From Chitinophaga filiformis (GTDB lineage Bacteria; Bacteroidota; Bacteroidia; Chitinophagales; Chitinophagaceae), in contig NZ_FNBN01000014.1 in the NCBI RefSeq assembly GCF_900102545.1, positions 1 to 64,000 of the forward strand: a DNA stretch of 64,000 nucleotides, read 5' to 3'. Of this stretch, positions 3,001-54,960 are shown piece by piece. Numbering within the stretch: position 1 is the stretch's first letter; every line of letters starts with the position of its first letter. Both the position numbers and the translations under genes were made by a program. A model generated the notes under the pieces. That model was not told the origin of the DNA. It was given only the letters and a program-made list of their open reading frames with translations, and did no database searches.

Positions 3001-3486
3001 GCAGTCTTTACGTTTACCTTCTCTGAAGATGTGATAGGCTTCGAAGCAACAGATATCAATGTTAACAATGGTACCGTGAAGGAAATCAAACAACTGTCGC
3101 CTAGCATTTATGATGTGGTTATTGTACCACTCGAAAACGGGATAATGACAGTGAACGTTCCGGCGGACAAGGCAACTGACATGGCTGGTAATGGTAATGC
3201 GGTTTCCAGTACCCTGGCTCTCCGTATAAAATTCGGAATGAGTATAGAGATCGTCTATCCAATGCCGGCATCTGATGTAGTGAACGTACGCTTCAACGGC
3301 TTTGATTTCGGAGAGGTTACTTATACGATGACAAGTATGGCAGGTCAGGTATTGCTGCAGCAGGATGGTATTGTGAAGAATGGCATACTGACCTTCAATA
3401 CACAGCGTGTTCCTTCCGGTACTTACGTACTGTACATCAGGATGAAAGACCACAGCTTTAACACTACGGTCGTAATAGCAAGATAA
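1..3486 (+). CDS. Giant Ig-like repeat adhesin with T9SS sorting domain (5' truncated by window)
   Basis: The frame is open from base 1, so the N-terminus lies upstream; 1161 residues are visible. Eleven Ig-like repeats run in tandem. They are marked by a TIYVDG-type motif at bases 1, 274, 547, 820, 1093, 1366, 1639, 1924, 2197, 2482 and 2770, so the period is 273 bp (91 aa) and later 273-288 bp. Each repeat has the pattern NSTVTIYVDG, GTTTA, GNYTFTV, DGTHAFTATATDAVGN. Residues about 981-1079 look like a different Ig-like module (FTFTFSEDVIGFEATDI). The last 80 or so residues (YPMPASDVVNVRF ... GTYVLYI) match the Por-type C-terminal T9SS sorting domain, so the protein is probably exported by T9SS and anchored or released at the surface. 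It likely serves adhesion or gliding (inference). A porV gene follows directly. Confidence 0.9.
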   Translation, partial: TIYVDGASVGTTTANASGNYTFTVPTALTDGTHAFTATATDAVGNVSAPSATLNITIDTQKPTVPTITTAQTLTSDNTPTVTGTAEANSTVTIYVHGNAVGTTTATATGNYTFTVPTPLSDGTHAFTATATDAVGNVSAPSATLNITIDTQKPTVPTITTAQTLTSDNTPTVTGTAEANSTVTIYVDGNAIGTTTANATGNYTFTVPTPLSDGTHAFTATATDAVGNVSAPSATLNITIDTQKPTVPTITTAQTLTSDNTPTVTGTAEANSTVTIYVDGNAVGTTTANATGNYTFTVPTPLSDGTHAFTATATDVVGNVSAPSATLNITIDTQKPTVPTITTAQTLTSDNTPTVTGTAEANSTVTIYVAGNAVGTTTANASGNYTFTVPVPLSDGTYAFTATATDAIGNVSVPSATLNITIDTQAPAPPTITTAQTLTNDNTPTVTGTAEANSTVTIYVDGNAAGTTTADASGKYTFTVPASLSDGTHAFTATAKDAVGNVSAPSATLNITIDTKAPQAPTITTDKTPTSDNTPTVTGTAEANSTVTIYLGGNVAGTTKADASGNYTYTFNPSLADGNYTITATATDAAGNTSAHSPALNITIDAAAPATPAAPQLIGGTNGIINDATPSIKGDAEANSTVTVYVDGKPVGTTKTDASGHYTYTFDPALADGPHDITVTATDATGNTSGQSPALPIVIDTQAPAVPTVTTDKSPTNDNTPTINGKAEPNSTVTVYVDGKPAGTTTADNNGNYSYTFNPALADGNHDVTTTATDAAGNTSAQTPPLSLSVDTKAPAAPTIVLETTSNNGVITTTKPTISGAAEPNSTVTIYVDGVVAGTTTADASGHYTYTFNPGLSQGAHAITATATDAAGNTSLPGGPLSFSIDAMAPGIPSAPVLPGINIPGLVNTGTPRITGRGEPGTIITVYTDDKPVGTAEVNANGDWSYTYDPALTEGAHNITVTASDKEGNESGHSNQVVMTVDLTRPDVSLLTRAKEPLNAPAVFTFTFSEDVIGFEATDINVNNGTVKEIKQLSPSIYDVVIVPLENGIMTVNVPADKATDMAGNGNAVSSTLALRIKFGMSIEIVYPMPASDVVNVRFNGFDFGEVTYTMTSMAGQVLLQQDGIVKNGILTFNTQRVPSGTYVLYIRMKDHSFNTTVVIAR

Positions 3487-3497
3487 CAACTGATAAT

Positions 3498-3523
3498 CCC
3501 GGCAACCAGCCTGTGTTGCCGGG
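3498..3523 (+). terminator. 9-bp perfect hairpin after the adhesin gene
   Basis: CCCGGCAAC (3498-3506) and GTTGCCGGG (3515-3523) form a perfect 9-bp stem with an 8-nt loop, 12 bp after the adhesin stop codon. No T-tract follows, so it may attenuate transcription or protect the mRNA end rather than fully terminate. A GTG at 3513 that could start the next frame lies inside this stem, which favours the ATG at 3543 for porV. Confidence 0.5.
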
Positions 3524-3542
3524 ACTACATAAATCAATTGAG

Positions 3543-4673
3543 ATGATACGTTTCTGTTTCCGTTCTGCAGCACTGGTATTTCTGATAGGAACAGTTCTGC
3601 CCGTTATATCACATGCACAGGAGAAAACTATTAATGTGGCTACATCTGCCGCACCTTTCCTGAGGATATCTCCGGATGCCCGTGCCGGTGGAATGGGAGA
3701 AATAGGCATTGCCACAAAGGCGGATGCTAACGCGCCCTTCTATAATTTGTCTAAGATTGTCTTTGCAGAAGCGCCAAATGGTGTAGCTGTTTCCTATGTA
3801 CCCTGGTTGAGAGCAATCAGTAACAAGATTTACCTGGCTACTGTCAGTGGTTATCACAAACTGGATGATAACCAGGCAATAACCGGGGCACTCCGGTATT
3901 TTAACCTGGGCAATATCCAGTTTGCAGATGCTTCCGGTAATCCGCTGGGTAGTTCCAGTCCCCGGGAGTTCTCACTAGAAGGAGGCTATGCCCGTAAGCT
4001 GGGAAGCCGCTTGAGTCTTGCATTGGCGGCACGTTACATCTACTCAAAACTGGCCAGCGGCAACGCCAACAATTCTGGAGTCAATTACAAAGCCGGTAAT
4101 GCATTCGGAGTGGATATCTCCATGACTTACAACGCGGTGAACGAAGAAGGAAAGGGCCTGGTAACCGGCGCTACGCTTACCAACCTGGGCTCACGAGTGA
4201 ATTACAGTAACAACAGCGCTGCCAAAGAATACCTGCCCTCCAATTTTGGAGCAGGGGTAGCTTATAATCTGCCGATGCAGGAAGGCCATAAATTCACTTT
4301 CGGCCTCGATCTCAATAAGATGCTGACACCTGTCATTCCAAATGATTCGGCAGGCATTGCCTCTTATTACGACTACAGTGTCGTGAAAAGCTGGTTTAAA
4401 TCCTTTAGCAGTGCCAACGGCGGCTTGAAATCCTTCCAGATATCCCTGGGCTGCGAATACAGTTATAAGGATCAATTTTTCATGCGCACTGGCTATTTCT
4501 ATGAAGATAAATACCATGGCGACCGTAATTATCTGACCGCTGGCGTTGGGTATAAATATGGTTCGGCTATGATCAATATCGCCTACATAGTACCATCCGG
4601 TAGTGGCGCCACCAGGAGCCCACTGTCCAATACATTGCGTTTTGGCGCTACCGTGGACCTTCCCTGGAAATAG
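3543..4673 (+). CDS. porV: T9SS outer-membrane protein PorV/LptO
   Basis: Outer-membrane beta-barrel of the PorV family, 376 aa. PorV binds the C-terminal sorting domain of type A T9SS cargo and carries it from the translocon to the attachment complex. Visible evidence: signal peptide MIRFCFRSAALVFLIGTVLP ending in HAQ, then the family signature SPDARAGGMGEIGIA, followed by alternating amphipathic strands to a C-terminal strand ending in LPWK. The ATG at 3543 is chosen because it gives a clean signal peptide and the upstream GTG lies in a hairpin. The gene sits 56 bp after a cargo gene with a sorting domain, so it may be a dedicated or extra PorV copy rather than the housekeeping one. Confidence 0.85.
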   Translation: MIRFCFRSAALVFLIGTVLPVISHAQEKTINVATSAAPFLRISPDARAGGMGEIGIATKADANAPFYNLSKIVFAEAPNGVAVSYVPWLRAISNKIYLATVSGYHKLDDNQAITGALRYFNLGNIQFADASGNPLGSSSPREFSLEGGYARKLGSRLSLALAARYIYSKLASGNANNSGVNYKAGNAFGVDISMTYNAVNEEGKGLVTGATLTNLGSRVNYSNNSAAKEYLPSNFGAGVAYNLPMQEGHKFTFGLDLNKMLTPVIPNDSAGIASYYDYSVVKSWFKSFSSANGGLKSFQISLGCEYSYKDQFFMRTGYFYEDKYHGDRNYLTAGVGYKYGSAMINIAYIVPSGSGATRSPLSNTLRFGATVDLPWK

Positions 4674-4711
4674 ATTGTCTTTATCCCTGTCCTATATATC
4701 CACTACCTATG

Positions 4712-4741
4712 ATGGCTCGTCTTCCCGGCGGGCCATTTGTT
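4712..4741 (+). terminator. Hairpin terminator after porV
   Basis: ATGGCTCG (4712-4719) pairs with CGGGCCAT (4729-4736), with one G-T wobble, and is followed by TTTGTTTCTT. It lies 38 bp after the porV stop. The end of the stem abuts the putative -33 element of the next gene. Confidence 0.5.
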
Positions 4742-4765
4742 TCTTATTTAAATTATTTATATTTG
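4736..4765 (+). promoter_or_regulatory. Bacteroidota-type promoter for the 4809 gene
   Basis: TTTG at 4736-4739 and TATATTTG at 4758-4765 match the -33 (TTTG) and -7 (TAnnTTTG) elements with an 18-bp spacer. Transcription would start near 4770, giving a leader of about 38 nt before the ATG at 4809. Confidence 0.6.
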
Positions 4766-4808
4766 TTATACCTAATCGGCATTTTCCCTAAACCTAAACC
4801 CAAAACCT

Positions 4809-5120
4809 ATGATTTTCATTTATGGACGCAACAGTTTCAAAGTAAAGGCTGTTCAGCTGTCGGAAATCGGTATACACACTGAAGTTCCAGGGGTGGTACA
4901 ATTCGAATACAGGCAACAATATGCACATCTGTACTATATCCCAATGTTTCCCATTGGGTCACAGTGGTGTGTGCGTAAGACAGACAACAAGCTCTATGAG
5001 GTAAACCATGAATTGTTGCCAACATTGAATGCTTTGCCAAGGCCTAAAAGGGGATGGCTTGCTTTTGCCGGTCCTATTATTGCTGCGCTGGTATTCATTT
5101 ATTTCCGGATTTTCGTTTAA
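4809..5120 (+). CDS. Small hypothetical protein with C-terminal membrane segment
   Basis: 103 aa, family not recognised. Residues 1-80 are mixed and soluble-looking (MIFIYGRNSFKVKAVQLSEI, then YAHLYYIPMFPIGSQWCVRK). Residues about 84-102 (WLAFAGPIIAALVFIYFRIF) form one hydrophobic helix preceded by basic residues PRPKRG, which suggests a tail-anchored inner-membrane protein with its bulk in the cytoplasm. It has its own promoter upstream and terminator downstream, so it is probably monocistronic. Coding status is supported by these flanking signals and the clean ATG. Confidence 0.7.
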   Translation: MIFIYGRNSFKVKAVQLSEIGIHTEVPGVVQFEYRQQYAHLYYIPMFPIGSQWCVRKTDNKLYEVNHELLPTLNALPRPKRGWLAFAGPIIAALVFIYFRIFV

Positions 5121-5144
5121 GAATTATTACAGCATATGAAATAC

Positions 5145-5175
5145 AAAAGGGGGTATCGGGAGATACGCCCTTTTT
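5145..5175 (+). terminator. Intrinsic terminator
   Basis: AAAAGGGGGTATC (5145-5157) pairs with GATACGCCCTTTT from 5162 with one mismatch and a GGGA loop, followed by a T-run. It ends the 4809 transcript. Confidence 0.75.
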
Positions 5176-5290
5176 CGTTTTCCGGGAAAGGGAATTGCGC
5201 AAAAATTAACCGTTCCTCCTATACTTTTCTTGTGGTGATTGTTTTTTTGTATTTTCATTGTCATACCGTGCCACGTTAAACACAAAAAAC

Positions 5291-6265
5291 ATGAGTTCAA
5301 GAAGACAATTTATGCAACAGGCTGGCCTGATAGCCGCCGGTGTTATGATCAACCCATCTGGTATTTTCAGCAGAGCCCGCGAAAATACAGTTAACAAAAT
5401 AGGCATCCAGTTATATACCCTGCGTGACCAGCTGGCAAAAGACGTGAAAACCACCATTGAGAAGGTAGCCCAAACCGGCTATAGCCATGTTGAGACATTC
5501 TACGGTTATAAAGCGCCTGATCAGAAGGAACAGTTCTGGGGATTGGATCCTAAAGGTTTGAAGGCCCTGTTGAAAGACAACAATCTCGCCACCCACAGTG
5601 GACACTATCAGCTGAACGATTACCTGACCCGCGGAAAGGGGAGTGATGAAGCACTGAAAGTACAACTCGGCATTGCAAATGAACTGGGACAGCAATATCT
5701 TGTTGTACCGGTACCTCCGGTGGGTTTGTGGGATAAGATGACTGCTGATGACTATAAGTTCATTGCAGAACAACTGAACAAAGCAGGGGAGCTGGCTAAG
5801 AAATCTGGCCTGAAAATCGGGTATCATAATCACTACTGGGAATTCAGACAGCTGCCCGATGTAAAAGCCTCCGGATATGAGCTCATGCTGAAAGGAACCG
5901 ATCCTTCTCTGGTAACTTTTGAGCTGGATCTCTTCTGGGCCATTAAAGCCGATGTGGATCCTGTAGCGTTATTCAAAAAATATCCCGGCCGTTTCTCCAT
6001 GTGGCATGTGAAAGACATTGATAAATCAGCTACAGAGAAAATTGCCGGCGGTGATGCAGATCATAAAACCGCCATGGAGATCCTGCCTCATGTGAAATTC
6101 GCAGAGGTAGGCACCGGCGCTGTTGATTTCAAAGACATCTTTGCCAATGCCAGCTTAGCAGGCGTGAAATATGCTTTCGTAGAACAGGACAAGATCACTA
6201 TTGATCCGTTTGAAAGTATTAAGAAGAGTTACGGATATGTGAAAAGTAATTTGCTGAAAGCTTAA
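5291..6265 (+). CDS. Exported sugar phosphate isomerase/epimerase-like TIM-barrel protein
   Basis: 324 aa of the xylose-isomerase-like TIM-barrel (AP endonuclease 2) superfamily. The N-terminus MSSRRQFMQQAGLIAAGVMI is Tat-like (SRRQFMQ), so the protein probably functions in the periplasm. Barrel motifs include GIQLYTLRDQ, GYSHVETFYG, GLKIGYHNHYWEF, FELDLFWAIKADVDP, WHVKDID, and EVGTGAVDFKDIF with the final EQD. Conserved His/Glu/Asp residues in these strands fit metal binding as in the family. The substrate is unknown. An in-frame TTG at 5258 exists, but the ATG at 5291 directly precedes the Tat motif. Hydroxypyruvate-isomerase-like or inosose-dehydratase-like activity cannot be separated from sequence alone. 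Confidence 0.85.
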   Translation: MSSRRQFMQQAGLIAAGVMINPSGIFSRARENTVNKIGIQLYTLRDQLAKDVKTTIEKVAQTGYSHVETFYGYKAPDQKEQFWGLDPKGLKALLKDNNLATHSGHYQLNDYLTRGKGSDEALKVQLGIANELGQQYLVVPVPPVGLWDKMTADDYKFIAEQLNKAGELAKKSGLKIGYHNHYWEFRQLPDVKASGYELMLKGTDPSLVTFELDLFWAIKADVDPVALFKKYPGRFSMWHVKDIDKSATEKIAGGDADHKTAMEILPHVKFAEVGTGAVDFKDIFANASLAGVKYAFVEQDKITIDPFESIKKSYGYVKSNLLKA

Positions 6266-6602
6266 GAACATATAGCATTAAGGATAAACAGGGGTAGATA
6301 TGATTATCTGCCCCTGTTTGTTTCAGGATATGGCAGTCTTCTCAGGCAGATTGCTGCCACTGCGGACATTCCATTCCTTCAGCACCCCTATAACCCGCAG
6401 GATTTACGTAGTTCCTGAAAGGCCCCCGAATACGTATTTCCCGCAATGGTGGCCGATTTGAGAGTTTATAACGCCTTTTATTTTATCAGGAGTACCATTT
6501 ACCTGCCAATTCTTGCCAGATAGGAATTGCCATTTTTCTTTTCTTGTGCGATGCTCTTACTTTGCCTCCATAAAAATTTTCACCCCGAAAAAATTACTAA
6601 TT
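6266..6602 (+). other. Intergenic region between isomerase-like and M23 genes
   Basis: 337 bp without a supported gene. It holds the terminator at 6286-6319 and a leader for the M23 gene. The sequence TTACTTTG near 6549 resembles a -7 box but misses the TAnnTTTG spacing by one base. Nothing else recognisable. Confidence 0.5.
6286..6320 (+). terminator. Intrinsic terminator
   Basis: AAACAGGGG (6286-6294) pairs with CCCCTGTTT (6311-6319), extended inward by AGATA/TATCT around a TGAT loop, about 20 bp after the stop codon. Confidence 0.75.
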
Positions 6603-8375
6603 ATGAAAATCGCAATGACAGCAGCAGCCGTACTTTTATGTATACAGGCATTTGCGCAGGACCCTCAAAAAGAAGAAAGAGAAGCACCAGAACTACTCTA
6701 CAAAAGTGTTAAAAAAGCAACCATGACAGCTCCGGATGGACCGGATGGCGACGAGATCAGTAACAAGCCTGTAAGCAGCAGATTAAGGACAGTGACCCCT
6801 TCAAGAAAAATCAGTGCTGCCAAACAAGTGATATTTACAGAAGCAGATGCTCCCGGCATCGTAATGATGCGTGCCGGAAGTAGTAGCTGTGCTGCTCCCA
6901 TCGTGGAAGAAGGCATGGATCCGGTATATGATGGCGTAAAAGCGCATATGCCATTGTACCTGCCTTACAAAAGCAGCAGCGTAGGTATCTGGCAGGGCTT
7001 TTACTACAATTGGGATAAAAACAACGACGGTAATAAAGATATTCACCGTGCCACTGACTATGGCAAAACTTCGGTCGACGCTAACGAAGACCCCACTTTT
7101 GGTGTGTATGCCATCGCTCCAGGTAAGGTCATTGATGTATATTGGTCAAATGGTGGTGGTAACATTATCGTTATCGAACACACCGCACTTGACGGATTTA
7201 AATATCGTAGCCGCTATCTGCATCTTCGTAACGGATACGATAATGACAGAGCGCTGGCTAAAAACTCTCCAACCGCCAAGTATAAAGCATTTGCAAAGAA
7301 TGGCACTACCAGTAATTTATGCTGGGGTACCAACAGCCAGACTATTAAGGTCAAAAAGGATGACTATGTACAGGCCGGACAGTTCCTCGCTTATTCAGGT
7401 AATACCGGTTCCGGTGGTATTGGTGTAATCCTTAATGACGACGGTACGCTGACAAATCCAAATACAAAATCATTCAACGTGCACCTGCACTTTGAAACAG
7501 CTGTACTGGACACCCGCAACGGTCACAGTGGCGAATGGGTGAATGTAGATCCATATGGTACCTATAATCACAGTGGCGTTAGCTGTTATGATCTCGAATC
7601 AGTAACACCTTATGCCCGCTTATTTGCGCCGTTTTACCCCAGCTTCCATAATGTACCACTGAATATTGTAAACAAATTCTGGTCTTACTACACCGGTATG
7701 GGCATGGCATTACAGACAGTAAGCGTTGACCGCAATGGTAGCGATCTGTATGCTGCCGGTTCCTTTCAGTGGGGATTATCAGGAGAGTGGTACACACATT
7801 TTTATATGACAGGCGCGGTTTACCAAACTTATTTTAACACCTACAACGCAAAAGGTATGCGTCCCCGTCAGATATCAGTAACGAAAGATGGTAGCGGCAA
7901 CCCACGTTTTTCTGTGATCTGGGAAAAGAACCCTGCCGGCCAGTCAGCTTATTCTATCCACAATGCAGATGACGCCAGCTTTAATAATGCATGGAATACA
8001 TATGTTACCAGCAAGAAATGGCATGTACAGGAACATGTGGACTATACAGTTGGTGGCAAAAGATTGCATGCTGCGGTTTTTGTAAATAAACCTAACGACA
8101 ATGGCTTCTATCTGTACTACGGTATGAACTCAACGGACTTCAATAATAAGTTCAACGAATTATATCCTAACTGGGAGCTAAAGAGCATCTGTGTGAATGG
8201 CAGCCAGGTAGGAGGCGTATGGCGTCCTAAAAAGAATAATTACGCTGCTTATTACGGCATGACATCCGCAGACTATCAATCCAAATTTAACCAGTTTACG
8301 TCTCAGGGATTACGTTTGGTGAAGGTGCAGAATTACGACGACAATGAACGTTTCAGCGCCGTATGGAGTAAGTAA
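6603..8375 (+). CDS. Exported M23 (LytM-type) metallopeptidase with C-terminal BTRD1-like repeats
   Basis: 590 aa. Signal peptide MKIAMTAAAVLLCIQAFAQ fixes the start at 6603; an upstream in-frame start would bury it. Residues about 120-330 form a LytM/M23 zinc peptidase domain with HRATDYG (H148, D152), YLHL (H207) and HLHFE (H294, H296), the expected metal and catalytic residues. M23 enzymes cleave peptidoglycan cross-links or Gly-rich peptides. Residues about 355-590 hold at least three repeats of the type FxxYYGMxxxxFNxxFNxxxxxG...L...V, ending in FSAVW, resembling the bacterial tandem repeat domain BTRD1 also found in polyglycine hydrolases. This combination suggests a secreted lytic enzyme with a binding tail (inference). 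A strong terminator follows. Confidence 0.85.
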   Translation: MKIAMTAAAVLLCIQAFAQDPQKEEREAPELLYKSVKKATMTAPDGPDGDEISNKPVSSRLRTVTPSRKISAAKQVIFTEADAPGIVMMRAGSSSCAAPIVEEGMDPVYDGVKAHMPLYLPYKSSSVGIWQGFYYNWDKNNDGNKDIHRATDYGKTSVDANEDPTFGVYAIAPGKVIDVYWSNGGGNIIVIEHTALDGFKYRSRYLHLRNGYDNDRALAKNSPTAKYKAFAKNGTTSNLCWGTNSQTIKVKKDDYVQAGQFLAYSGNTGSGGIGVILNDDGTLTNPNTKSFNVHLHFETAVLDTRNGHSGEWVNVDPYGTYNHSGVSCYDLESVTPYARLFAPFYPSFHNVPLNIVNKFWSYYTGMGMALQTVSVDRNGSDLYAAGSFQWGLSGEWYTHFYMTGAVYQTYFNTYNAKGMRPRQISVTKDGSGNPRFSVIWEKNPAGQSAYSIHNADDASFNNAWNTYVTSKKWHVQEHVDYTVGGKRLHAAVFVNKPNDNGFYLYYGMNSTDFNNKFNELYPNWELKSICVNGSQVGGVWRPKKNNYAAYYGMTSADYQSKFNQFTSQGLRLVKVQNYDDNERFSAVWSK

Positions 8376-8395
8376 ACTCATACCGGTATAAAAAT

Positions 8396-8419
8396 GCCGT
8401 CCTGGAGAGCCAGGACGGC
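8396..8419. terminator. Bidirectional hairpin terminator
   Basis: GCCGTCCTGG (8396-8405) and CCAGGACGGC (8410-8419) form a perfect 10-bp stem with an AGAG loop. A-rich bases lie to the left and GTTT to the right, so it can serve both the M23 gene and the leftward coiled-coil gene ending at 8471. Confidence 0.8.
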
Positions 8420-8470
8420 GTTTCCTATTTGTTCACGTTTATGTCGTGCTTTGACCACATTGTTATTATG

Positions 8471-8971
8471 TCAGTCGCGACCTTTCGGTGCCTGTCTTGG
8501 AATGTTCTTCCTGGCCCCAGGTGGTTCGACATTTTTGTCAATGAGTGATTCCAATGAATAGAACCGGCTGTCCATCTGGATCTCCATTGCAGTAAACCTT
8601 TGTTCAATGTCTATCTGCCTTGATTCTATCATCGCTACTTTTTTCTCCACGACGGTTACCCTTTCTCCCATTACCTTGAATTCCTCCCTGACTTCATTTC
8701 GGAAATCATTCAGGTTAGTTTCCAGTGCATCTACTCTTTCTGTAAGCATATCCACCTTCTTCTCCAGTGCTATCACTCTATCGGTAAGTTTATCAACTTT
8801 TACCGCCAGTACCTCCACTTTTAGTGTGAGAGCATCTACCTTTGCCTCTATATTGGTCAATCTGGCCTCCATATTAATCGTTCGTTCTCCCAAATTGTCC
8901 AATGTTGTCTGCATATTAGTCAATAGTGTTACTATATGCCGGACTGCGTCAGCTCCAAATGTAAGTTCCAT
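8471..8971 (-). CDS. Coiled-coil protein, largest member of the small-ORF array
   Basis: 166 aa, no known family recognised. After an N-terminal segment MELTFGADAVRHIVTLLTNM, residues about 25-140 are near-continuous heptads with 7-residue spacing of L/V/I (for example VDALTLKVEVLAVKVDKL, then EKKVDMLTERVDALE), a long parallel coiled coil. The C-terminal 25 residues are Pro/Arg/Lys rich (PPGARKNIPRQAPKGRD). No signal peptide or membrane helix. Its first 20 residues are clearly related to the two small ORFs to its right (9037-9189, 9255-9422), and a leader of about 45 bp upstream is shared. Leftmost, last gene of the array. Confidence 0.75.
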   Translation of the reverse strand: MELTFGADAVRHIVTLLTNMQTTLDNLGERTINMEARLTNIEAKVDALTLKVEVLAVKVDKLTDRVIALEKKVDMLTERVDALETNLNDFRNEVREEFKVMGERVTVVEKKVAMIESRQIDIEQRFTAMEIQMDSRFYSLESLIDKNVEPPGARKNIPRQAPKGRD

Positions 8972-9036
8972 AACAAAAAAGATGTTTGTATAAATGATAG
9001 GTTAAAAAATGGTAACCCACTAAGCCCGATACAGAT

Positions 9037-9189
9037 CTAGCCCCCCTTACGAGTTTCCACGTGTGGTTCAGCACTAGCTTTTGCGCCCATCATTTCCATT
9101 GCGTCAAGAACAGCAGCCATCGTCATTTCTAACTTTATCAGCAGTGCCAGTATTCGCTGCATTGTATCAGCTCCAATTCTAAATTCCAT
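9037..9189 (-). CDS. Small paralogue of the coiled-coil array (50 aa)
   Basis: Fifty residues starting MEFRIGADTMQRILALLIKL and ending EPHVETRKGG. The start aligns with the 8471-8971 protein (MELTFGAD...IVTLLTNM), and the EPHxxT tail aligns with the 9255-9422 protein (EPHTGTED). It is Met-rich in the middle (LEMTMAAVLDAMEMMG) and predicted helical. It is too short for most gene callers. Support comes from paralogy at both ends and the conserved upstream leader. Function unknown. Confidence 0.6.
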   Translation of the reverse strand: MEFRIGADTMQRILALLIKLEMTMAAVLDAMEMMGAKASAEPHVETRKGG

Positions 9190-9254
9190 AGTAAAAAATG
9201 TTTTTGTATAAATGATTGGTTAAAAAGTGGAGTCTCACTAAACCCGATACAGGA

Positions 9255-9422
9255 TTAGTCTTCCGTTCCCGTGTGTGGTTCAATACTGGTTTTCTGTCCC
9301 GCATTTCCAGACCCTTCTGTCATCCTGGTTAGGATTGCTTGTATATTGATCATTACGGCCTCCATATTGGTCAATAGTGCTATTACATGCTGACCTATGT
9401 CAGTCCCCGGTGTTAATTCCAT
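9255..9422 (-). CDS. Small paralogue of the coiled-coil array (55 aa)
   Basis: Fifty-five residues, MELTPGTDIGQHVIALLTNM at the start and SIEPHTGTED at the end. The segment VIALLTNMEAVMINIQAIL matches VTLLTNMQTTLDNL of the long member, so it looks like a head-only version of that protein. Its C-terminal TGTED is identical to that of the next ORF (9480-9671), suggesting cassette duplication with tail exchange. The upstream leader is again conserved. Function unknown. Confidence 0.6.
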   Translation of the reverse strand: MELTPGTDIGQHVIALLTNMEAVMINIQAILTRMTEGSGNAGQKTSIEPHTGTED

Positions 9423-9479
9423 AACTAAACATGTTTTTGCAAAATGATTGATTAAAAGTGATCTCTATCCTGTTACGGA

Positions 9480-9671
9480 TTAGTCTTCCGTTCCAGTTTC
9501 CTTAGTCGGTTGCGCATCAGTCTTCTCCTCCTCCTTCTTTGTTTCTCCTTTGAATGCATCTGCTCTTATAATGAATATCTCTTCCTCCGTAGGAGTTATA
9601 ATGTTAATATTTACATTATTTACTACTACCTGAACTGGTTGTGCTGGATCAGCTTTAACTGTGAATTCCAT
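9480..9671 (-). CDS. Small acidic/charged member of the array (63 aa)
   Basis: Sixty-three residues starting MEFTVKADPAQPVQVVVNNV and ending KETGTED. The start at 9671 is preferred over an ATG two codons upstream (9677) because ME(F/L)xxxAD then aligns with its neighbours. The middle is a short Val/Asn/Ile-rich strand-like stretch, then a Lys/Glu-rich tail (KGETKKEEEKTDAQPTKE). It differs from the helical members after the first 11 residues but shares the final TGTED and the leader. Function unknown. Confidence 0.6.
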   Translation of the reverse strand: MEFTVKADPAQPVQVVVNNVNINIITPTEEEIFIIRADAFKGETKKEEEKTDAQPTKETGTED

Positions 9672-9691
9672 GATCATAAAAGTTGTTTTTT

Positions 9692-9919
9692 TTAAATAAA
9701 TGATTGGTTAGAAAATAATATATCGGACAATAGACCTCCCTTCCCGCTTACCCGCGGTAAACAGAACCTCCATGCTAACAAGTCTTTAAAATGCCGTCCT
9801 CCAGTGCCAGACAACGAGGGCAATAAATCCTCATCCGTCTTACCTCGCGGTAAAACAGGCACTGTGACAATTTCAATTATTAGGGTGTGATGATGCCAGC
9901 AAAAGATTGATTGCGGCAA
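9692..9919 (-). pseudogene. Possible decayed member or spacer of the array
   Basis: An open frame of 75 codons with only a TTG start, containing a twofold motif (VPVLPRGK and FCLPRVSGK) and the DNA repeat cgcggtaaa at 9753 and 9845. It ends inside the conserved leader of the 9480-9671 gene. No similarity to the other members in protein sequence; the DNA just upstream (9935-9955) weakly resembles the shared leader. It could be a degenerate copy or non-coding. Confidence 0.25.
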
Positions 9920-9963
9920 TGCGTAGTCGGGACGTCTACAAACAAATCAATAGGTCAACGATA

Positions 9964-10083
9964 TTAAGCAGGCTTTGATACAACCTCATTGCGTGGGTAT
10001 CGCTTTCTGCTCTTTCTCTTTTTAGGATGCTGCTGCTCGGTACCCGGAAATAATATCGGTAGTTGAGCAGGTATTTTCTGCAT
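9964..10083 (-). CDS. Possible small basic peptide, first ORF of the array (39 aa)
   Basis: Starts MQKIPAQLPILFPGTEQQHP and continues with a very basic stretch KKRKSRKRYPR. An ATG two codons upstream (10089) is an alternative. The 42 bp upstream resemble the leader of 9480-9671 (ATCATAAAA, then a T-run, ATGAATAATGGTTGG), which is the main reason to list it. No relatives recognised. It could be a regulatory peptide or a chance ORF. Confidence 0.35.
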   Translation of the reverse strand: MQKIPAQLPILFPGTEQQHPKKRKSRKRYPRNEVVSKPA

Positions 10084-10179
10084 TATCATAAAAACAGTTT
10101 TCACATGAATAATGGTTGGCTTCAATCAGAAAAGTAATAACCTTTCAAATTTTATAACCCTTCGATCAGAAAGGTATGG

Positions 10180-10241
10180 AACTGTGTCTATCCTAAGATA
10201 ACTGTACTTATCCTGAAGATAACTGTGTCTATCCGGAAGAT
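10180..10241. repeat. Three 20-21-bp direct repeats
   Basis: Tandem copies at 10180-10199, 10200-10220 and 10221-10241 with the consensus AACTGTGTCTATCCTGAAGA. The third is followed by ACACAGTT (10245-10252), an inverted copy of the unit's start, so a hairpin AACTGTGT...ACACAGTT can form. The repeats lie between the small-ORF array and the 3' end of the YfhO-like gene, upstream of the array in its direction of transcription, and may be a regulator binding region. Confidence 0.7.
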
Positions 10242-10317
10242 AAACACAGTTATCCTATGGCGGATTGATAATTTCTATCATAAACAAACAATGGTTTTTT
10301 ATTACCCCTCAAAAGTA

Positions 10318-30195: not shown

Positions 30196-31554
30196 TCAGG
30201 CGCCCTCTATTTCACCTGTCTGTAACATTTTATAAATGGTGGATTTGCCAATATCCAGTTTCTCCGCCACAAGCAGCACATTATCATCGTACCTTTTCAG
30301 GTAATTGCGGATGATGAGCCTTGTATATTCTCTTAAGGTGAGTTCCGTATTCAACACAGTATCCACGTCATGATTATTACCTGAGAGGAAGGTAATATCT
30401 TCAGGTTCCACGAGATTATTCTCTGACATGACCGCTGCCAGTTCCACTACTGACTTTAGTTCGCGCACGTTTCCCGGATAGGTGTAACCCAACAGCTTTT
30501 CTCTCGCGCTGGGAGACACTTTTATTTCAGGTACTTTATTTTCCTTACAGTAAGCGGTCAGGAAATGCTGTGTCAGCAGCAGGATATCTTCTTTGCGCTC
30601 ACGCAGGGGAGGGAGCGTAATAGGAAGACCAATGATACGGTAATAAAGGTCTTCACGGAAATTACCCTTTTTTACTTCCTCCGCAAGGTTCTTGTGAGTG
30701 GCAACTACCAGCCTGAAGTCCAGTTTGATCTTGCTGGTGCCTCCGAGGCGGGTCAATTCCTTCTCCTGCAATACGCGCAGCAGCTTGCTTTGTATATTCA
30801 GATCCATTTCCCCGATCTCATCCAGGAAAAGGGTACCGCCATTCGCTTCTTCAAAACGGCCGGTCTTCTTATTCAGTGCACCGGTAAAGGCGCCTTTTTC
30901 ATAACCGAACAATTCGCTTTCCACCAGTTCCTTCGGAATAGCGGCCATATTTACAGGCACAAAAGGATGACTGCTTCTGGCAGAATTATAATGGACAGCC
31001 CGCGCCACCAATTCCTTACCGGTACCGGTTTCGCCTGATACGGAGACATTGATAAGTGAGCCGGCAGCTTTATCTATTAATTTGAAAACGCTTTGCAGGG
31101 CAGGACTATTACCAATAATAGACCGGGAATAGTCGTATTTGGTCTTGAGTTCGGCCTTGAGCTCGGAAATCTCATTCTTGAGAGAAAGCTTTTCCCTTAA
31201 GCGGATGATTGCCTTCCACAACAGTTGTTGGGTATTATCATCTTTTACCAGGTAATCTTCTGCCCCCATTTTTAGCAGATCCACTGCAGTAGTGATCCTC
31301 TCCTGAGCGCTGATAATGATAACAGGGAGATTTGGCTGGGCCTGTTTAATTTTTTTGTAAAGTTCTTCCCCGTTCATATCAGGAAGCCCAAAGTCGATGG
31401 TCACAAGATCTGGTTTCCGGTGCAACTGCGCCAGGCATTCCTTGCCTGAGCCAATCAAGGTTATTTCGTAGTCGGGGTTTTGACTAAGGTAATGCTGTAA
31501 TAATCCTCCGTACCACTTATCATCCTCTACAATAAAAATCTTAAAATCGAGCAT
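30196..31554 (-). CDS. Sigma-54-dependent response regulator (NtrC type)
   Basis: 452 aa with three domains: receiver, residues 1-120 (phospho-acceptor D54 in LVTIDFGLPDMNG; conserved Lys in YLVKDD); AAA+ sigma-54 activator, about 145-375 (Walker A GETGTGKE, GAFTGA loop in YEKGAFTGALNKKTG, Walker B GGTLFLDEIGEM, second region RVLQEKELTRLGG); and a Fis-type HTH at the end (LLVAEKLDIGKSTIYKML). It activates RpoN promoters on phosphorylation. The paired Hpt gene is downstream. The start follows a 610-bp gene-free stretch with hairpin repeats. Confidence 0.93.
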   Translation of the reverse strand: MLDFKIFIVEDDKWYGGLLQHYLSQNPDYEITLIGSGKECLAQLHRKPDLVTIDFGLPDMNGEELYKKIKQAQPNLPVIIISAQERITTAVDLLKMGAEDYLVKDDNTQQLLWKAIIRLREKLSLKNEISELKAELKTKYDYSRSIIGNSPALQSVFKLIDKAAGSLINVSVSGETGTGKELVARAVHYNSARSSHPFVPVNMAAIPKELVESELFGYEKGAFTGALNKKTGRFEEANGGTLFLDEIGEMDLNIQSKLLRVLQEKELTRLGGTSKIKLDFRLVVATHKNLAEEVKKGNFREDLYYRIIGLPITLPPLRERKEDILLLTQHFLTAYCKENKVPEIKVSPSAREKLLGYTYPGNVRELKSVVELAAVMSENNLVEPEDITFLSGNNHDVDTVLNTELTLREYTRLIIRNYLKRYDDNVLLVAEKLDIGKSTIYKMLQTGEIEGA

Positions 31555-31590
31555 TCATGGAATTTTCTGTTAATTTAGGAAAATTTCCCA

Positions 31591-32102
31591 TCATCAAAAA
31601 AGGCCTCACGTAGCTACCTTTTTAAAGATAACGCCGGAGGCCCGATAGGGATTATGTAGGCAAGCAAAAAAACAAGGTAATTGTTCACTGTTCCTGTGGT
31701 TTCATCAACAGGCCCCTCTGCCTCACAAATCCATTTGCATCGGGGCCCTGATGAAGCACTCTTAAAGCTGGTAAGGGATCACACTCTAATAACATCATTG
31801 TACGATCATCGCCTGGCCCCTCCAACTCACACTAACAGCAACCACACGAGGGGCCGGGATGACAGTCCACATACTCAACACAATATTTTTAAAGATCTTT
31901 TTACTGTTTATCATCGCCTGGCCCCTCTGCGACACATTTCCATTTTCACCGGGGCCGGGATGACGCATTCTCAAAGCTGGCAAAGCATCACATCCACATC
32001 CTTAATCTGTTTCAATTTCTTCTGATTCATCGCCTGGCCCCACTGTTTCACTTGCTGCGCCTGCACCGGGGCCGGGATGAACGTCCACAAACAACACAAA
32101 AT
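31591..32102. repeat. Array of four (possibly five) hairpins spaced about 105 bp
   Basis: Hairpin units lie at 31702-31754, 31806-31862, 31911-31963 and 32027-32080. Units 2-4 start TCATCGCCTGGCCCC and end GGGGCCGGGATGA; unit 1 is a variant (TCATCAACAGGCCCC ... GGGGCCCTGATGA). Arms pair over about 15 bp with two bulges; loops are variable (about 20-27 nt). A degenerate unit may lie at 31591-31645. The spacers alternate: 31757-31783 matches 31966-31992 (22 of 27 bases), and 31863-31884 resembles 32081-32102, so the array is two copies of a dimer of about 210 bp. This fills the gap between the glycosyltransferase and the sigma-54 regulator. No gene is supported in it. Confidence 0.85.
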
Positions 32103-32164: not shown

Positions 32165-33340
32165 TTAATTCCTCGAATTGTCAATATATTCCTGTAAAGC
32201 AGCGGGGTAGAGCAGCACTTCTGCCAGTTGTTCCTTCTTGCGGGTGGCGGTAAAGTAATTTCCTTCCAGGAAGATGTCTCCCACCTGCTGCTTGAAAAAT
32301 TCTGATTTAAACTGAGAGGCTACCAGTTGTGCAGCGCAGCTCATGTCCGCATATAAAGGCTTGTTCTGGAACAGCTGCTCTACATGTTTGCGTACCTTGT
32401 CGATATAATGGCCGCTGATACGGTAACCGTTCCATCCGTGCGCTACCAGTTCATTTGCTCCTCCACTCAGTGGTACGATCACTGGTCTGCCGTAACTCAT
32501 CGCCTGCAGAATGCTGATATCAAACGTATCATGATGGTGCTCAACATGAGAGAGATTCAGTACCACAGCCGCACGCTGGTAGAAAGGATGCAGGTTCATC
32601 TGTGTGCCGTATATCATCAGATTGTCGGGCATCTGGCAGTGTTCAAAGTACGCGTCAATATGTTTCTTGTGGGCATTGATCACCAGTTCAAACTTTGTCG
32701 CTGGCATGAGTGTAGCTAGTTCTAGCAGTTCACGCAGGCCGCTTTCTTCATCGAGAGAAGCCACCATCAATACCGTTTTACGGGAACCATGATTGGAATG
32801 CAGCACTGCTTCCTGTACGAACGACTGAGGCAGACAACTGTGTACAACATGTTTCTCTGCTTTCGGGAAAGTCATCTGTGACTGTAAGTAGCGAGAGCCG
32901 AACACCACCTGTGTGGCCAGTTTTTTCGCAGATTCATACAGTAGCCCGCGAAGAAATGGTACGTGTACGGCCATTTCATGAATGTGATAAGTGATCGGCG
33001 CGTTCTTCAGCCTGCCAGCCCATGCTGCTCCCAAAGGCAGTAAGGTATTAATATACACTTTCGCTTCCGGTTCATACAAACTCAATACCTTCCTGAAAAT
33101 CAGCACTTGCGCCAGCAGGAAGCTGAAGAATAGACGCCATTTGTTCCCCCGTTCAGAATAATTTATGTAGTGGTACTGTATACCCGGGACACCTGTAAGG
33201 AACCCTGGCATTTCACCAGTACGGTTTGTGATAAGATGCACTTCCAGACCTTTCTCTATCAAGGTTTCCAGTGACTGGCGAAATACCAGTGTGCTACCGC
33301 TCCTGTCGTTTTGCAGATGTACTGCTATGATCTTTTTCAT
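32165..33340 (-). CDS. Glycosyltransferase family 4-like protein
   Basis: 391 aa with a GT-B two-domain layout. N-terminal domain: KKIIAVHLQNDRSGSTLVFR, VYINTLLPLGAAWAGRL, ITYHIHEMAVHVPFLRG. C-terminal domain: TVLMVASLDEESGLRELLEL (nucleotide-sugar binding start), NLMIYGTQMNLHPFYQRAAV, and the GT4-like acceptor loop FDISILQAMSYGRPVIVPLSGGANE. The usual EGFG is replaced by DISI, but the position is conserved. A role in surface polysaccharide assembly is likely; donor and acceptor are unknown. It is not in a polysaccharide cluster. Confidence 0.85.
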   Translation of the reverse strand: MKKIIAVHLQNDRSGSTLVFRQSLETLIEKGLEVHLITNRTGEMPGFLTGVPGIQYHYINYSERGNKWRLFFSFLLAQVLIFRKVLSLYEPEAKVYINTLLPLGAAWAGRLKNAPITYHIHEMAVHVPFLRGLLYESAKKLATQVVFGSRYLQSQMTFPKAEKHVVHSCLPQSFVQEAVLHSNHGSRKTVLMVASLDEESGLRELLELATLMPATKFELVINAHKKHIDAYFEHCQMPDNLMIYGTQMNLHPFYQRAAVVLNLSHVEHHHDTFDISILQAMSYGRPVIVPLSGGANELVAHGWNGYRISGHYIDKVRKHVEQLFQNKPLYADMSCAAQLVASQFKSEFFKQQVGDIFLEGNYFTATRKKEQLAEVLLYPAALQEYIDNSRN

Positions 33341-33431: not shown

Positions 33432-33920
33432 TTATGAAGATCTCAGAACGTCGTATAAATAGCTGAACAGTGAACAGGATGCCAGTACCAATCCTACGAA
33501 AAAGAAGAACCTGTTGTTTCTGCGTTTTTTCTTCAGATAATCCTGTACCACAAAAAGTTTGTTAAGCGTGGCTGTTATATGTTCCAATACACTGTCGTCT
33601 TTAATAATGTAGTCAAACGCACCGTTCTTGAGTGATTCTGTTGCGATTTCCGGTTGCTGACGGGAGCTGGCGAAGATCACGAAGATGTCGGAGTTGAATC
33701 GTTTGATATCCTTTAACAAGTCCAGTCCGGTCATATCTCCCAGGTCATGGTCCAACAGTACAATATCCGGCTCGTCTGACAGTTGCAACAGAAAGTCTGT
33801 ACCCGATAAGAAGCAAGTCACATTTTCATATCCCTGTGCCCTGAGGTGCTTATCGTATGCGGCGAGACAGAATGGATCATCATCTACCACGTATATCTTA
33901 CTGTCGAATTTGTTAGCCAT
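33432..33920 (-). CDS. Receiver-domain protein with C-terminal membrane segment
   Basis: 162 aa. Residues 1-125 are a complete response-regulator receiver: acidic pocket VVDDD (13-15), phospho-acceptor D57 in IVLLDHDLGDMTG, Ser in IFASSRQQ and Lys in YIIKDD. There is no DNA-binding or enzymatic output. Instead a basic stretch KKKRRNNR precedes a hydrophobic helix (FFFFVGLVLASCSLFSYLYD) at the very C-terminus, so the receiver should be anchored on the inner face of the membrane. The start is taken at 33920 (MANKF); an ATG at 33950 is possible. Confidence 0.8.
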   Translation of the reverse strand: MANKFDSKIYVVDDDPFCLAAYDKHLRAQGYENVTCFLSGTDFLLQLSDEPDIVLLDHDLGDMTGLDLLKDIKRFNSDIFVIFASSRQQPEIATESLKNGAFDYIIKDDSVLEHITATLNKLFVVQDYLKKKRRNNRFFFFVGLVLASCSLFSYLYDVLRSS

Positions 33921-34074
33921 TGTTTCGTTGTTTGATATAGTAGAATCCATTTGGATGCCAGATTGCGGAATCGTGCCAAAGCCGCTATGGTGGCTGACTT
34001 CAGAATTGGCACAGGACGAGAAACGTCCATTTGCAGGAAAAAATTCCAAAAAATGGAAAAATGGGGCAGGCTCA

Positions 34075-37727: not shown

Positions 37728-40700
37728 TCAAGGTTTTTCTTCAGTAAGGATTTCCATTTCCACTCTTCTGTTCTTTCCTTTGGCAGCTTTGCTGTCGTTG
37801 GCAGCGAGAGGTTTCGTTTGTCCGTACCCTTTGGTAGTGATCCTGTTTGCGGTAACACCCTTGCTAACCAGGTATTGTTTTACAGCCTCACTTCTTTTTT
37901 CTGATAAAGCCTGGTTAAATGCTTCTGTTCCTTCATTGTCAGTGTGGCCGCTCAACATTAACTGCCATTCCGGGTGCGCCTGCAGCAGGCTGGCCATTTT
38001 ATCCAGGGAAGGTAGTGACGTTGTTGCGATATCTGCTTTTGCACTGGCAAACTGAAGGTTGGAAAATGCTTTATTGATAACCTCTTTTTCTGTTGTTTTC
38101 AGATCTACTGTTTTGAGGACTGGTTTAGCGCTAGCCGCAGGAGCATCAGGAGTTGCAGCTGTAGAAGCTTCCTGTACCGGTAATGGGCCAGGACCTACAG
38201 GGAAACGTCTGTCTGAATAAGGGAGCACTGTTCCATCAGGCAGTACTTCATCCGCACGGGATGCAACGATCTGCCAGGTGAAAGGAACATTTGATTTACC
38301 ACCCTGTAATTCTTTTACATCAAATCCTTTAGCTGATTTATTGGTCACATACACACCATTACATTCGCCTTCCAGCTGAATGAACACCTTCATCGGGTGT
38401 TTGGCGTCTACGCGGATCACTTTTGTAAGCAGGCCTTCCAGATCAATGTGAGCAGCACCATTCTGAAGTTCACCGGTTCCGAAGTCCTGAAACAGCACCT
38501 CAGGCGCTTCTGTACAGAAAAGGAGACGGTTTTCACCAGCATTGTCTTTTACAACAGTTGATTTGGTACCGTTGGAAATGAGACCATAGATACCGGAGGA
38601 ATTGGCGCCTGCCAGGTAAGCGTATACATGAACGGAGCTGATACCAGTACCAAACTGGAAAACACCACCCCAACGGTCAATATCAGTTGCGTTACCTTTT
38701 GCAAATCCATGTACACCTACACCGGTGTTCAATCCGCCTGCGGAACCAGCTACGCCGGCGCCACCAATCGGATATACCACTACCTCATTATTACCACCAC
38801 CTACTACACCCATACCGTTGGTAGCTGTTGTTCCAAAACCAACCACGCCTGCGCGGGTACCAATACCCATCATACCACCACCGATGGTAGGCGGATTGGT
38901 GAACAGGTCAGGTTTCAGGTTGTTACCGATACCTACCACACCGTAACCGGAAGCATGCGTGGATGAACCCATTACACCAGCGGATCTTACTTCTGTAGTA
39001 GGTTTATAAGGAGAGTTCGTGGTACCTTCCACACCCAGACCACCGTTGGTGGAAGAGTTAGTACCTTTTACACCCTGTATATAGCGGGAAGTACCAGTAC
39101 CGAGAACCGCAGGTCCGAAAGCAGTAGCACCTCTGATACCAGGGCCGCTACCAAAGTTATAACCTGCAACACCAGCACCTGTACTGCTGTTAGCATACCC
39201 TACGATACCATTGGAGTAATTAGGGTCGCCATTAATAATACCAGTAGGCACTTCACTGGAAAATACGGTTAATACTGCTTTACCTACCTGCGCACCCGCA
39301 TCGTCAGTCCCATTCAGGATGGTCATTGGTTTATCAGGGAAGGTGCGGAGCCTTTCAAAGTTAGGAGCAGTACCACCTGCTTTTATAATAAATGGATTAT
39401 CATCTACTGTACCGATAAAATCGAGCGCGGGGTTAGTGTCTTTGTTACCTCTGACCAGCCATGCCCTGTTTGCTGATTTTACTGTATCGGTATTGGCCGT
39501 TGTAGTCAGACCGATGGATCCGTTATCCTGGAATTCCAGGTTTGACAGGTTCCATCCTGTACCGTCCTGCGCCAGTATCTGCCAGGTGCCGGTGGTATCG
39601 TAGATATAAGCTTTTCTGTCGGTGCTGTTGTAATATGCCTGGTTTGTTATCGCGCTGGCAGGAGGTGCAGCTAAAGTACCGAGCCAGCTGATAGAAATAC
39701 CGGTAGAACCATCCTGTGCCAGCACATTCCAGCTACCGGCGCCGGTAGTATCGTAGATATAAGATTTTCTGTCTGCTGTATTGTAATAGGCCTGGTTTAA
39801 TGTAGGACTGGCAGGAGGAGTTGCCAGAGAGCCCAGCCAGCTGATAGAGGTACCGGAGAGACCGGATACACCATCTTGTGTCAGGATCTGCCAGCTACCA
39901 GCGCCAGTAGTATCATAGATATAAGATTTCTTGTCTACTGTGTTGTAATAGGCCTGATTCAGTAGCGGACTGACGGGTGGTGTTGTCAGAGAACCGAGCC
40001 AGCTCACACCTGTACCAACACCATTCTGGCCGCTTTCAGAGAAAACCTGCCAGGCAGAACCATCATATATATATGCTTTCCGGTCGGTCAGGTCGTAATA
40101 GGCCTGGTTTAATCCCGGACTGGAAGGCGCAGACGTAAATGAGCCAAGCCAGCTGAGGGAGGTACCCGGCAAACCGTCCTGGGCCATGATGTTCCAGTTG
40201 GCAGTACCACCAGTAGTATCGTAAATATAGGAGCGTTTGTCTGTACTGTTATAATAAGCCTGTCCTGCTGAAGGTGTTGCCGGTGGAGTGGCGAGTGTAC
40301 CGAGCCATACGATGCTTACATTGGTGCTACCATTTCCTCCGCCGCCAGAGCCACCGTTCGCAGCATAGAGTGCATAAGGCACTGCCATGAACGGCATTAC
40401 ACCCATAGGCACGAAGGCACTTTGTCCACCCATGGCCATATCCACTCTCAGGTACTGATTACCCTTGCTCCAGGGAATGTTTTTGAAGTCCCCGATCTCA
40501 GGAGTACCGCCACCTATCACCGCGGTGAAGAGGCCTTGACTGTTGGTAAGGACGTCATGTATTTCCGTGTATATCGGATTGGCGTCAGGACCACCGTCAA
40601 GGATGCTGAATTTTATACGTACTGTTTGTAACGCAATTACAGCTCCTTTTGGGTTTTCCCTGGCAATAGCCTGGTAGTTGATACCCCATAAACCACTTTG

Positions 40701-40769
40701 CTGTGCTTTCGCGAAGAAGCTCAAACAGACGAAAATGGGAATAAATACAATGAGTAAAATTGCTTTCAT
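37728..40769 (-). CDS. Large surface protein: five WLG repeats, Gly-rich repeat region, OmpA C-terminal domain
   Basis: 1013 aa. Start at 40769 (MKAILLIVFIPIFVCLSFFA, signal peptide). Residues about 20-130 hold INYQAIARENPKGAVIALQT, a conserved N-terminal module of Bacteroidota surface proteins. Residues about 150-410 carry five repeats of WLG(T/S)L..PP.SP..NQAYYN...RKSYIYD.TG.W..LAQDG. Residues about 510-720 are rich in GxGVxG motifs (for example GVVGFGTTATNGMGVVGGGN), like beta-helix or trimeric fibre repeats. Residues about 895-1010 are an OmpA domain (LSGHTDNEGTEAFNQALSEK, GKNRRVEMEIL). It may form a cell-wall-attached fibre. Downstream, a small sorting-domain gene follows at 2 bp. Confidence 0.82.
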   Translation of the reverse strand: MKAILLIVFIPIFVCLSFFAKAQQSGLWGINYQAIARENPKGAVIALQTVRIKFSILDGGPDANPIYTEIHDVLTNSQGLFTAVIGGGTPEIGDFKNIPWSKGNQYLRVDMAMGGQSAFVPMGVMPFMAVPYALYAANGGSGGGGNGSTNVSIVWLGTLATPPATPSAGQAYYNSTDKRSYIYDTTGGTANWNIMAQDGLPGTSLSWLGSFTSAPSSPGLNQAYYDLTDRKAYIYDGSAWQVFSESGQNGVGTGVSWLGSLTTPPVSPLLNQAYYNTVDKKSYIYDTTGAGSWQILTQDGVSGLSGTSISWLGSLATPPASPTLNQAYYNTADRKSYIYDTTGAGSWNVLAQDGSTGISISWLGTLAAPPASAITNQAYYNSTDRKAYIYDTTGTWQILAQDGTGWNLSNLEFQDNGSIGLTTTANTDTVKSANRAWLVRGNKDTNPALDFIGTVDDNPFIIKAGGTAPNFERLRTFPDKPMTILNGTDDAGAQVGKAVLTVFSSEVPTGIINGDPNYSNGIVGYANSSTGAGVAGYNFGSGPGIRGATAFGPAVLGTGTSRYIQGVKGTNSSTNGGLGVEGTTNSPYKPTTEVRSAGVMGSSTHASGYGVVGIGNNLKPDLFTNPPTIGGGMMGIGTRAGVVGFGTTATNGMGVVGGGNNEVVVYPIGGAGVAGSAGGLNTGVGVHGFAKGNATDIDRWGGVFQFGTGISSVHVYAYLAGANSSGIYGLISNGTKSTVVKDNAGENRLLFCTEAPEVLFQDFGTGELQNGAAHIDLEGLLTKVIRVDAKHPMKVFIQLEGECNGVYVTNKSAKGFDVKELQGGKSNVPFTWQIVASRADEVLPDGTVLPYSDRRFPVGPGPLPVQEASTAATPDAPAASAKPVLKTVDLKTTEKEVINKAFSNLQFASAKADIATTSLPSLDKMASLLQAHPEWQLMLSGHTDNEGTEAFNQALSEKRSEAVKQYLVSKGVTANRITTKGYGQTKPLAANDSKAAKGKNRRVEMEILTEEKP

Positions 40770-41241
40770 CTCATACAAGTTATAACAGTAATAAGGCTAT
40801 AAGTATATAATATTACATTATATATTATATTATAAATAAAGTAAAGATATGATTAATATTCTATTTATTCTTATTTTAATGTATTGTTTACACAAACCTG
40901 CTACACGTTGGATGTAGAAATGAAGGGGTTATACTCATTTCTACTCATATTTTTACAACTTTCGTGGTATATGAACTGAAAGAACACTTGAAGTAAGAGT
41001 GGGTTATTACTTGATTATCAATGTAAAGCAGTTTGATGCTTTTTCGGTGCTTATACTCAATTCTGCCTGCTTCCCCAAAACGTGTTACCATATTTAAAAA
41101 GATAGTCTTATAGAACATAATTTCGCCAGTTACAGGAGATAATTCATTGCAAATTATTTTCATGGGTATGAGATCTTCAAGCCCGTCTTTCGTTTTCTCC
41201 GTTCCCCTCCGTATATTGCCTGTCTAAAGGAATATTGAGAT
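40770..41241. other. Divergent promoter region, surface protein and GH92
   Basis: 472 bp, very AT-rich at 40790-40890 with overlapping TATA-like repeats (tatataatattacattatat). An open frame on the minus strand at 40945-41163 has no other coding support. No named regulatory element is recognised. Confidence 0.4.
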
Positions 41242-54768: not shown

Positions 54769-54801
54769 TTTGGCGATTTAAATTGTTCTCCTATATCTTT
54801 G
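54769..54801 (+). promoter_or_regulatory. Promoter of the SAM riboswitch transcript
   Basis: TTTG at 54769-54772 and TATCTTTG at 54794-54801 with a 21-bp spacer match the Bacteroidota -33/-7 consensus. Transcription should start near 54806, just before the riboswitch. Confidence 0.8.
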
Positions 54802-54819
54802 CATCAGTTCTTTAAGTTT

Positions 54820-54928
54820 CTTATCAAGAAAGGCAGAGGGAAATGGCCCTGCGAAGCCTTAGCAACCACCCGGTTCCACCAGACCGGAAAGGTGCTACAT
54901 CCAGCCCGCTAATAGCGGGAAAGATAAG
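54820..54928 (+). ncRNA. SAM-I (S-box) riboswitch
   Basis: The leader has the S-box core: P1 5' strand CTTATC (54820-54825) and 3' strand GATAAG (54923-54928); AGAAAGGCAGAGGG, then TGGCCCTGCGAAGCC (P2 and kink-turn side), TTAGCAACC, a P3 hairpin (CCGGTTCCACCAGACCGG), AAGGTGCTACATCCAGC and a short P4 hairpin (CCCGCTAATAGCGGG). It binds S-adenosylmethionine and here should favour termination at 54961-54994 when SAM is high. It controls the metB-like gene at 55096. Assignment as SAM-I by consensus; not tested against a covariance model. Confidence 0.92.
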
Positions 54929-54960
54929 TCAGTAGGTTTGATCTATTTTACTTGAAATAT

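Follow-up and report, generated by a model that had tools for sequence, protein, structure and literature searches.

Introduction

Stable hairpins between the cistrons of polycistronic mRNAs can stabilize or uncouple the neighbouring messages, the REP region between malE and malF being an example. REPs usually occur in more than 100 copies per genome, measure 20-40 bp, carry in many cases a GTAG or CGTC head and are tied to a transposase, and stabilization of mRNA has been proposed for them; in BIMEs, REPs are arranged in alternating orientation (PMC2817692, PMC3733652). RNA regulation in the Bacteroidota is little mapped, and an alternating hairpin array may resemble BIMEs yet be something else. 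Such an array was analysed here in a window of 64,000 nt of Chitinophaga filiformis, by which we mean the whole stretch of DNA studied. It was compared with its counterparts in related genomes.

Organization of the array

On the minus strand of the window, a glycosyltransferase gene is followed by the array and then by a gene for a sigma-54 response regulator (Table 1). The array is to be read on this strand because both flanking genes lie on it. Four hairpins are spaced 104, 105 and 116 nt from start to start, which confirms the regular period of 104-116 bp described in the earlier note. That note had also counted four near-identical stems. Three of them (stems 2-4) are indeed identical, exactly TCATCGCCTGGCCCC...GGGGCCGGGATGA with unit-specific loops, whereas stem 1 is a variant (TCATCAACAGGCCCC...GGGGCCCTGATGA). 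A pattern search of the whole 8.6-Mb Chitinophaga genome retrieved these four copies and none elsewhere.

The possible fifth unit of the note turned out to be a real hairpin, but one with a different stem that the unit covariance model R1 does not match. By eye, a T-run follows this terminal hairpin and none of the other units; in some relatives the T-run is shorter or absent. The hairpin is attenuator- or terminator-like, and an attenuator, as had been proposed for the array, fits this distinct element by the regulator gene but not the other units. The leader of the regulator gene, which adjoins the array, is ∼90% identical even where the remaining region has diverged or is not alignable. These ∼40 nt before the start codon, in the window as in the orthologues, resemble an operator or leader. 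Elsewhere on the minus strand of the window (37728-40778) lies the gene of an OmpA-like protein, large and secreted, that contains tandem repeats (SWLGTLATPPASP...NQAYYNTADRKSYIYD).

Table 1. Features of the array and its flanking genes in the window
Feature	Position	Strand	Evidence
Sigma-54-interacting response regulator gene	30196..31554	-	Pfam PF00072 + PF00158
40-nt conserved leader of the regulator gene, GGAAAATTTTCC...GGAAAATTCC	31555..31594	-	DNA search matches to query 1-40
Terminal hairpin adjoining the regulator gene, stem GGCCTC/GAGGCC, then T6 on minus strand	31591..31648	-	Own cluster
Hairpin unit B2, variant stem	31702..31754	-	Covariance model R1 match 31699-31775, 56.1 bits; type B by clustering
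Hairpin unit A2	31806..31862	-	Covariance model R1 match 31803-31882, 72.8 bits; type A by clustering
A-type spacer, AAAGATCTTTAAAAATATTGTGTTGAGTATGTGGACT on minus strand	31863..31910	-	Kept before A hairpins across species
Hairpin unit B1	31911..31963	-	Covariance model R1 match 31908-31984, 80.3 bits; type B by clustering
Hairpin unit A1, nearest the glycosyltransferase gene	32027..32080	-	Covariance model R1 match 32024-32100, 70.8 bits; type A by clustering
Glycosyltransferase group 1 gene	32165..33340	-	Pfam PF00534
Receiver-domain protein gene upstream of the glycosyltransferase gene	33432..34049	-	Pfam PF00072

Two unit types alternate

Units from 13 genomes were typed by unsupervised clustering of their leads plus hairpins. 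Two types emerged that differ in both loop and lead, type A with the lead UAUUGUGUUGAGUAUGUGGAC and type B with UGCCAGCUUUGAGAGUGC and the like. The order in the window is A-B-A-B on the minus strand, and the same alternation was obtained across the 13 genomes, in agreement with the two dimers seen by the earlier note. Most relatives alternate as well, and there are local expansions; C. filiformis, for example, has three additional A units. Within species the units can be near-identical, as in genome G001. On the sequences compared, the A/B alternation is shown to predate the species. A pairing between the A loop and the B spacer (GCUGUCA with UGCCAGC/UGACAGU), judged by eye, was dropped; its mismatch is retained in most copies.

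Comparative evidence for a structured RNA on the sense strand

The minus-strand unit reads UCAUC CC GGCCC(C/U) - loop - (A/G)GGGCC A GG C GAUGA and forms a stem of 13 bp, the 3' arm of which carries two bulges of one nucleotide each. The loop, ∼25-30 nt long but widely variable in length, starts with (N)GGUG in most units, and the hairpin is preceded by a short lead, conserved and single-stranded (UUGAGUAUGUG or similar). For the whole array (551 nt), the folding energy is -183 kcal/mol on the minus strand, versus -145 on the plus strand. Since the fold z-scores (-2.4 and -2.2) are modest taken alone, the case for structure rests on comparative evidence.

Among 116 distinct units aligned to the model, 8 of the 13 pairs had changed on both sides, giving 50 covariation cells against 10.0 in shuffles (0 of 500 shuffles as high), where the alignment itself leans towards the model and some of the counts depend on it. 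Structures slid along the same 116 units gave far lower covariation than the true one. When 40 units were aligned without the model, two-sided changes were found at 4 pairs, with 12 cells versus 2.6 in shuffles. Further support is provided by the kinds of mismatch. On the sense strand 26 G-U, 6 A-C and 21 other non-Watson-Crick oppositions were counted, the units being related and the counts hence not independent events. Selection on the sense RNA would be expected to produce such an excess of G-U over A-C on this strand. In line with this strand, 105 of 114 units gave a hairpin of lower energy in the sense than in the antisense orientation.

The array was also compared with that of six close relatives. 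Identity to the window was 88-100% in the arms, 70-84% in the loops and 62-88% in the 40-nt leads, compared with 52-71% for the four-fold sites in the glycosyltransferase gene. Covariation and arm conservation together support the selection on structure that the earlier note had proposed. That the array is a structured RNA of the sense strand is, on these comparative grounds, well supported; single-stranded DNA could be an alternative source of the strand asymmetry. Conservation of the spacers and loops suggests that the array does more than simply block exonucleases, because a pure stabilizer would require neither the conserved UUGAGUAUGUG lead nor the A-type loop sequence.

The array is confined to one locus in a single clade

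For a survey of the genus, 79 Chitinophaga genomes were searched at the DNA level, the gap between both genes was extracted and the covariance model was then applied; one genome was taken per species, so that strain variation may be missed. The array was found in 21 of the 79 genomes, with ∼2-11 units, always at the same glycosyltransferase/regulator locus. Of 111 covariance model matches 110 lay at this locus, the sole match elsewhere being weak (24.5 bits, in G044). All but one of the 110 are sense to both flanking genes, and the single antisense match is a palindromic echo of 26.6 bits that overlaps a sense unit. An array absent elsewhere in its own genome might have been a local tandem duplication only, as the note had allowed; it is, however, conserved in 20 relatives.

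The glycosyltransferase gene is present in exactly the 21 array-bearing genomes. This co-occurrence could reflect shared ancestry alone, because all carriers belong to one clade and 21 related genomes are not independent events. A close regulator (74-75%), again preceded by a similar receiver gene, occurs in two more genomes; these lack the glycosyltransferase, and no array was found in their gap of ∼900 bp. In G075 the array directly follows the glycosyltransferase gene and is separated from the regulator by ∼8 kb of other genes. Thus the position directly upstream of the sigma-54 regulator, true of the window, is not constant, since the array of G075 stays with the glycosyltransferase. The insert in G075 (L076, about 2400-10300) holds genes that, named by eye, are ArsR-type regulator-like, ArsM-like methyltransferase, low-molecular-weight phosphatase-like and arsenite-type transporter-like.

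Beyond the genus survey, a GTDB-wide pattern scan found multi-unit arrays only on Chitinophaga-type contigs, one of them from a MAG labelled Flavihumibacter. The carriers were C. ginsengisoli, C. filiformis, C. rhizophila, C. pinensis, C. silvisoli, C. tropicalis and relatives. Single pattern matches in unrelated taxa were taken for chance palindromes, without a case-by-case look. A sample of ∼300 genomes of the family, searched with strict filters, contained outside the genus only a weak match of 28 bits (G340), and a sample of ∼395 genomes of the class, likewise under strict filters and at E 1e-4, gave no match beyond the source genome.

GA-rich tandem repeats of ∼45-50 nt take the place of the array interior in a subclade that includes [Flexibacter] sp. 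ATCC 35208, C. silvisoli and relatives (L079-L083), and hairpin units persist at the edges. In L080 a second repeat of ∼40 nt likewise lies inside the array. In six closed genomes the locus has a constant strand and a dnaA-relative position of 0.54-0.61, in the terminus half, which may be plain synteny.

Promoter and terminator signals

Within the array, sigma-70-like promoters did not exceed chance and the Bacteroidota-type promoter pattern was not found, Bacteroidota promoters being loosely defined. The same pattern matches elsewhere in the window, at 54769-54801, just upstream of a SAM riboswitch (54818-54930, plus strand; Rfam RF00162, 84 bits). The small RNAs considered in the earlier note thus lack promoter evidence in the array. 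A terminator scan of the array reported no terminator-like site. Behind the array of G075, inspection by eye shows a hairpin that is rich in GC and has a T-rich tail; the scan reports no terminator there. Unpaired sequence of the sense strand is poor in C, with 12% (mean of 21 genomes) versus 19% in the other co-directional gaps of the window. Evasion of Rho was not built upon, as the array of the window, with 13.4% C, merely equals the lowest of the other gaps.

Possible roles of the array

We tentatively favour, while holding it somewhat short of an even chance, the reading that the array is a tandem structured RNA of the sense strand, located in the intercistronic region (3' UTR) between the glycosyltransferase gene and the regulator gene and acting in cis. 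Gene order and strand suggest co-transcription with the glycosyltransferase gene. The action would probably be in cis; this role is favoured because of the fixed orientation, the linkage to the 3' end of the glycosyltransferase gene and the lack of promoters. The hairpins would block 3' exonucleases and so protect or delimit the 3' end of the glycosyltransferase mRNA, and would uncouple this message from the regulator gene. In some species the terminal T-tailed hairpin could serve as a leaky terminator. Unit repetition would set the strength of the effect, and for this reason copy number could drift while each stem is conserved.

The strongest rival is an RNA acting in trans, given that sequence conservation extends to the leads and the A-type loops. 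Such an RNA would be a precursor or an independent long non-coding RNA, with repeated hairpins that serve as sponge or scaffold for a protein or for other RNAs. It would either be released from the 3' UTR of the glycosyltransferase gene or have a promoter of its own. Besides the conservation of lead and loop in addition to the stem, the alternation of two unit types, the multiplication up to ∼11 units and the separation of the array from the regulator gene in G075 all speak for it. With neither a sigma-70-like promoter beyond chance nor a Bacteroidota-type promoter in the array, and with a partner protein that is only hypothetical, we regard a role in trans as possible but unlikely. A more specific proposal, a clade-specific non-coding RNA of tandemly multiplied, alternating hairpins of two types that travels with the glycosyltransferase gene and offers a multivalent platform (sponge or scaffold) to a hypothetical protein, is doubtful.

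The array might instead be a neutral local satellite, in which tandem recombination duplicates a once-functional hairpin that has no present function. Variable copy number, the near-identical units inside some species (G001) and the expansion of unrelated tandem repeats in the same gap of one subclade would fit. Arms more conserved than synonymous sites, compensatory changes in the stems and A and B types retained across species would not, and we consider neutrality improbable.

Next in rank, and improbable as well, are roles at the DNA level, which are disfavoured because the arms are unequal and the strands asymmetric. The units would then be repeated binding sites, for instance enhancers recognized by the sigma-54 activator encoded next to them, or hairpins of single-stranded DNA that act in recombination or chromosome organization. 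Inverted-repeat arms do adjoin the regulator gene, and in six closed genomes the locus is found in the terminus half, but synteny would lead one to expect a shared position on the chromosome. In nearly all units two extra bulged bases on one arm make the arms non-equivalent as sites; the excess of G-U over A-C is strand-specific, loop length is very variable and orientation is fixed. Mobile palindromes of the REP/BIME type are very improbable: the units are GC-rich imperfect palindromes in intergenic tandem and the genome has one Y1_Tnp gene, but they occupy a single locus in one rather than alternating orientation, their arms stand ∼25-30 nt apart without a GTAG-type head, and the transposase is on another contig.

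The array offers a well-defined and comparatively supported RNA structure with a natural copy-number series (∼2-11) at one conserved site. This series therefore lends itself to testing whether the repetition of intercistronic hairpins tunes gene expression in the Bacteroidota.

Comparison with known systems

The earlier note had likened the array to mobile REP/BIME repeats. Both are GC-rich imperfect palindromes in intergenic clusters, whereas the array consists of ∼54-nt hairpins with long loops at one locus in fixed orientation. Measured against the description of REPs (PMC2817692), all three features tested fail, namely dispersal, alternating orientation and the link to a transposase: the source genome has its four copies at a single locus and model R1 finds one locus per genome; all units of the array are co-oriented; and the only Y1-type transposase (PF01797) lies at G000:C9:544838-545182, with the array on C4.

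The array resembles integron attC arrays in its tandem of imperfect hairpins, one arm of which has extrahelical bases, but it has no gene cassettes between the units. The attC R boxes (RYYYAAC/GTTRRRY) are absent from the array consensus, and most units have TCATC/GATGA at the base of the hairpin. A search of the genome for an integron integrase gave no match, as did the positive controls.

No Rfam 15 family reached its gathering score for the array. The best matches below threshold, CRISPR-DR25 (19.3 bits) and sn1502 (18.2 bits), are at chance level (E 0.55-0.67). Nothing relevant was found in the literature searched for Chitinophaga repeats or RNAs. The type of evidence is nevertheless that of Rfam families, a conserved structure with covariation. 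Like the intercistronic stabilizing hairpins described above, the units are stable hairpins between co-oriented genes; they differ in being tandem, alternating and covarying, with conserved single-stranded leads, and their effect on RNA is putative. We therefore regard the array as a new candidate structured RNA, absent from Rfam and unusual in its alternating tandem multiplication and its narrow distribution.
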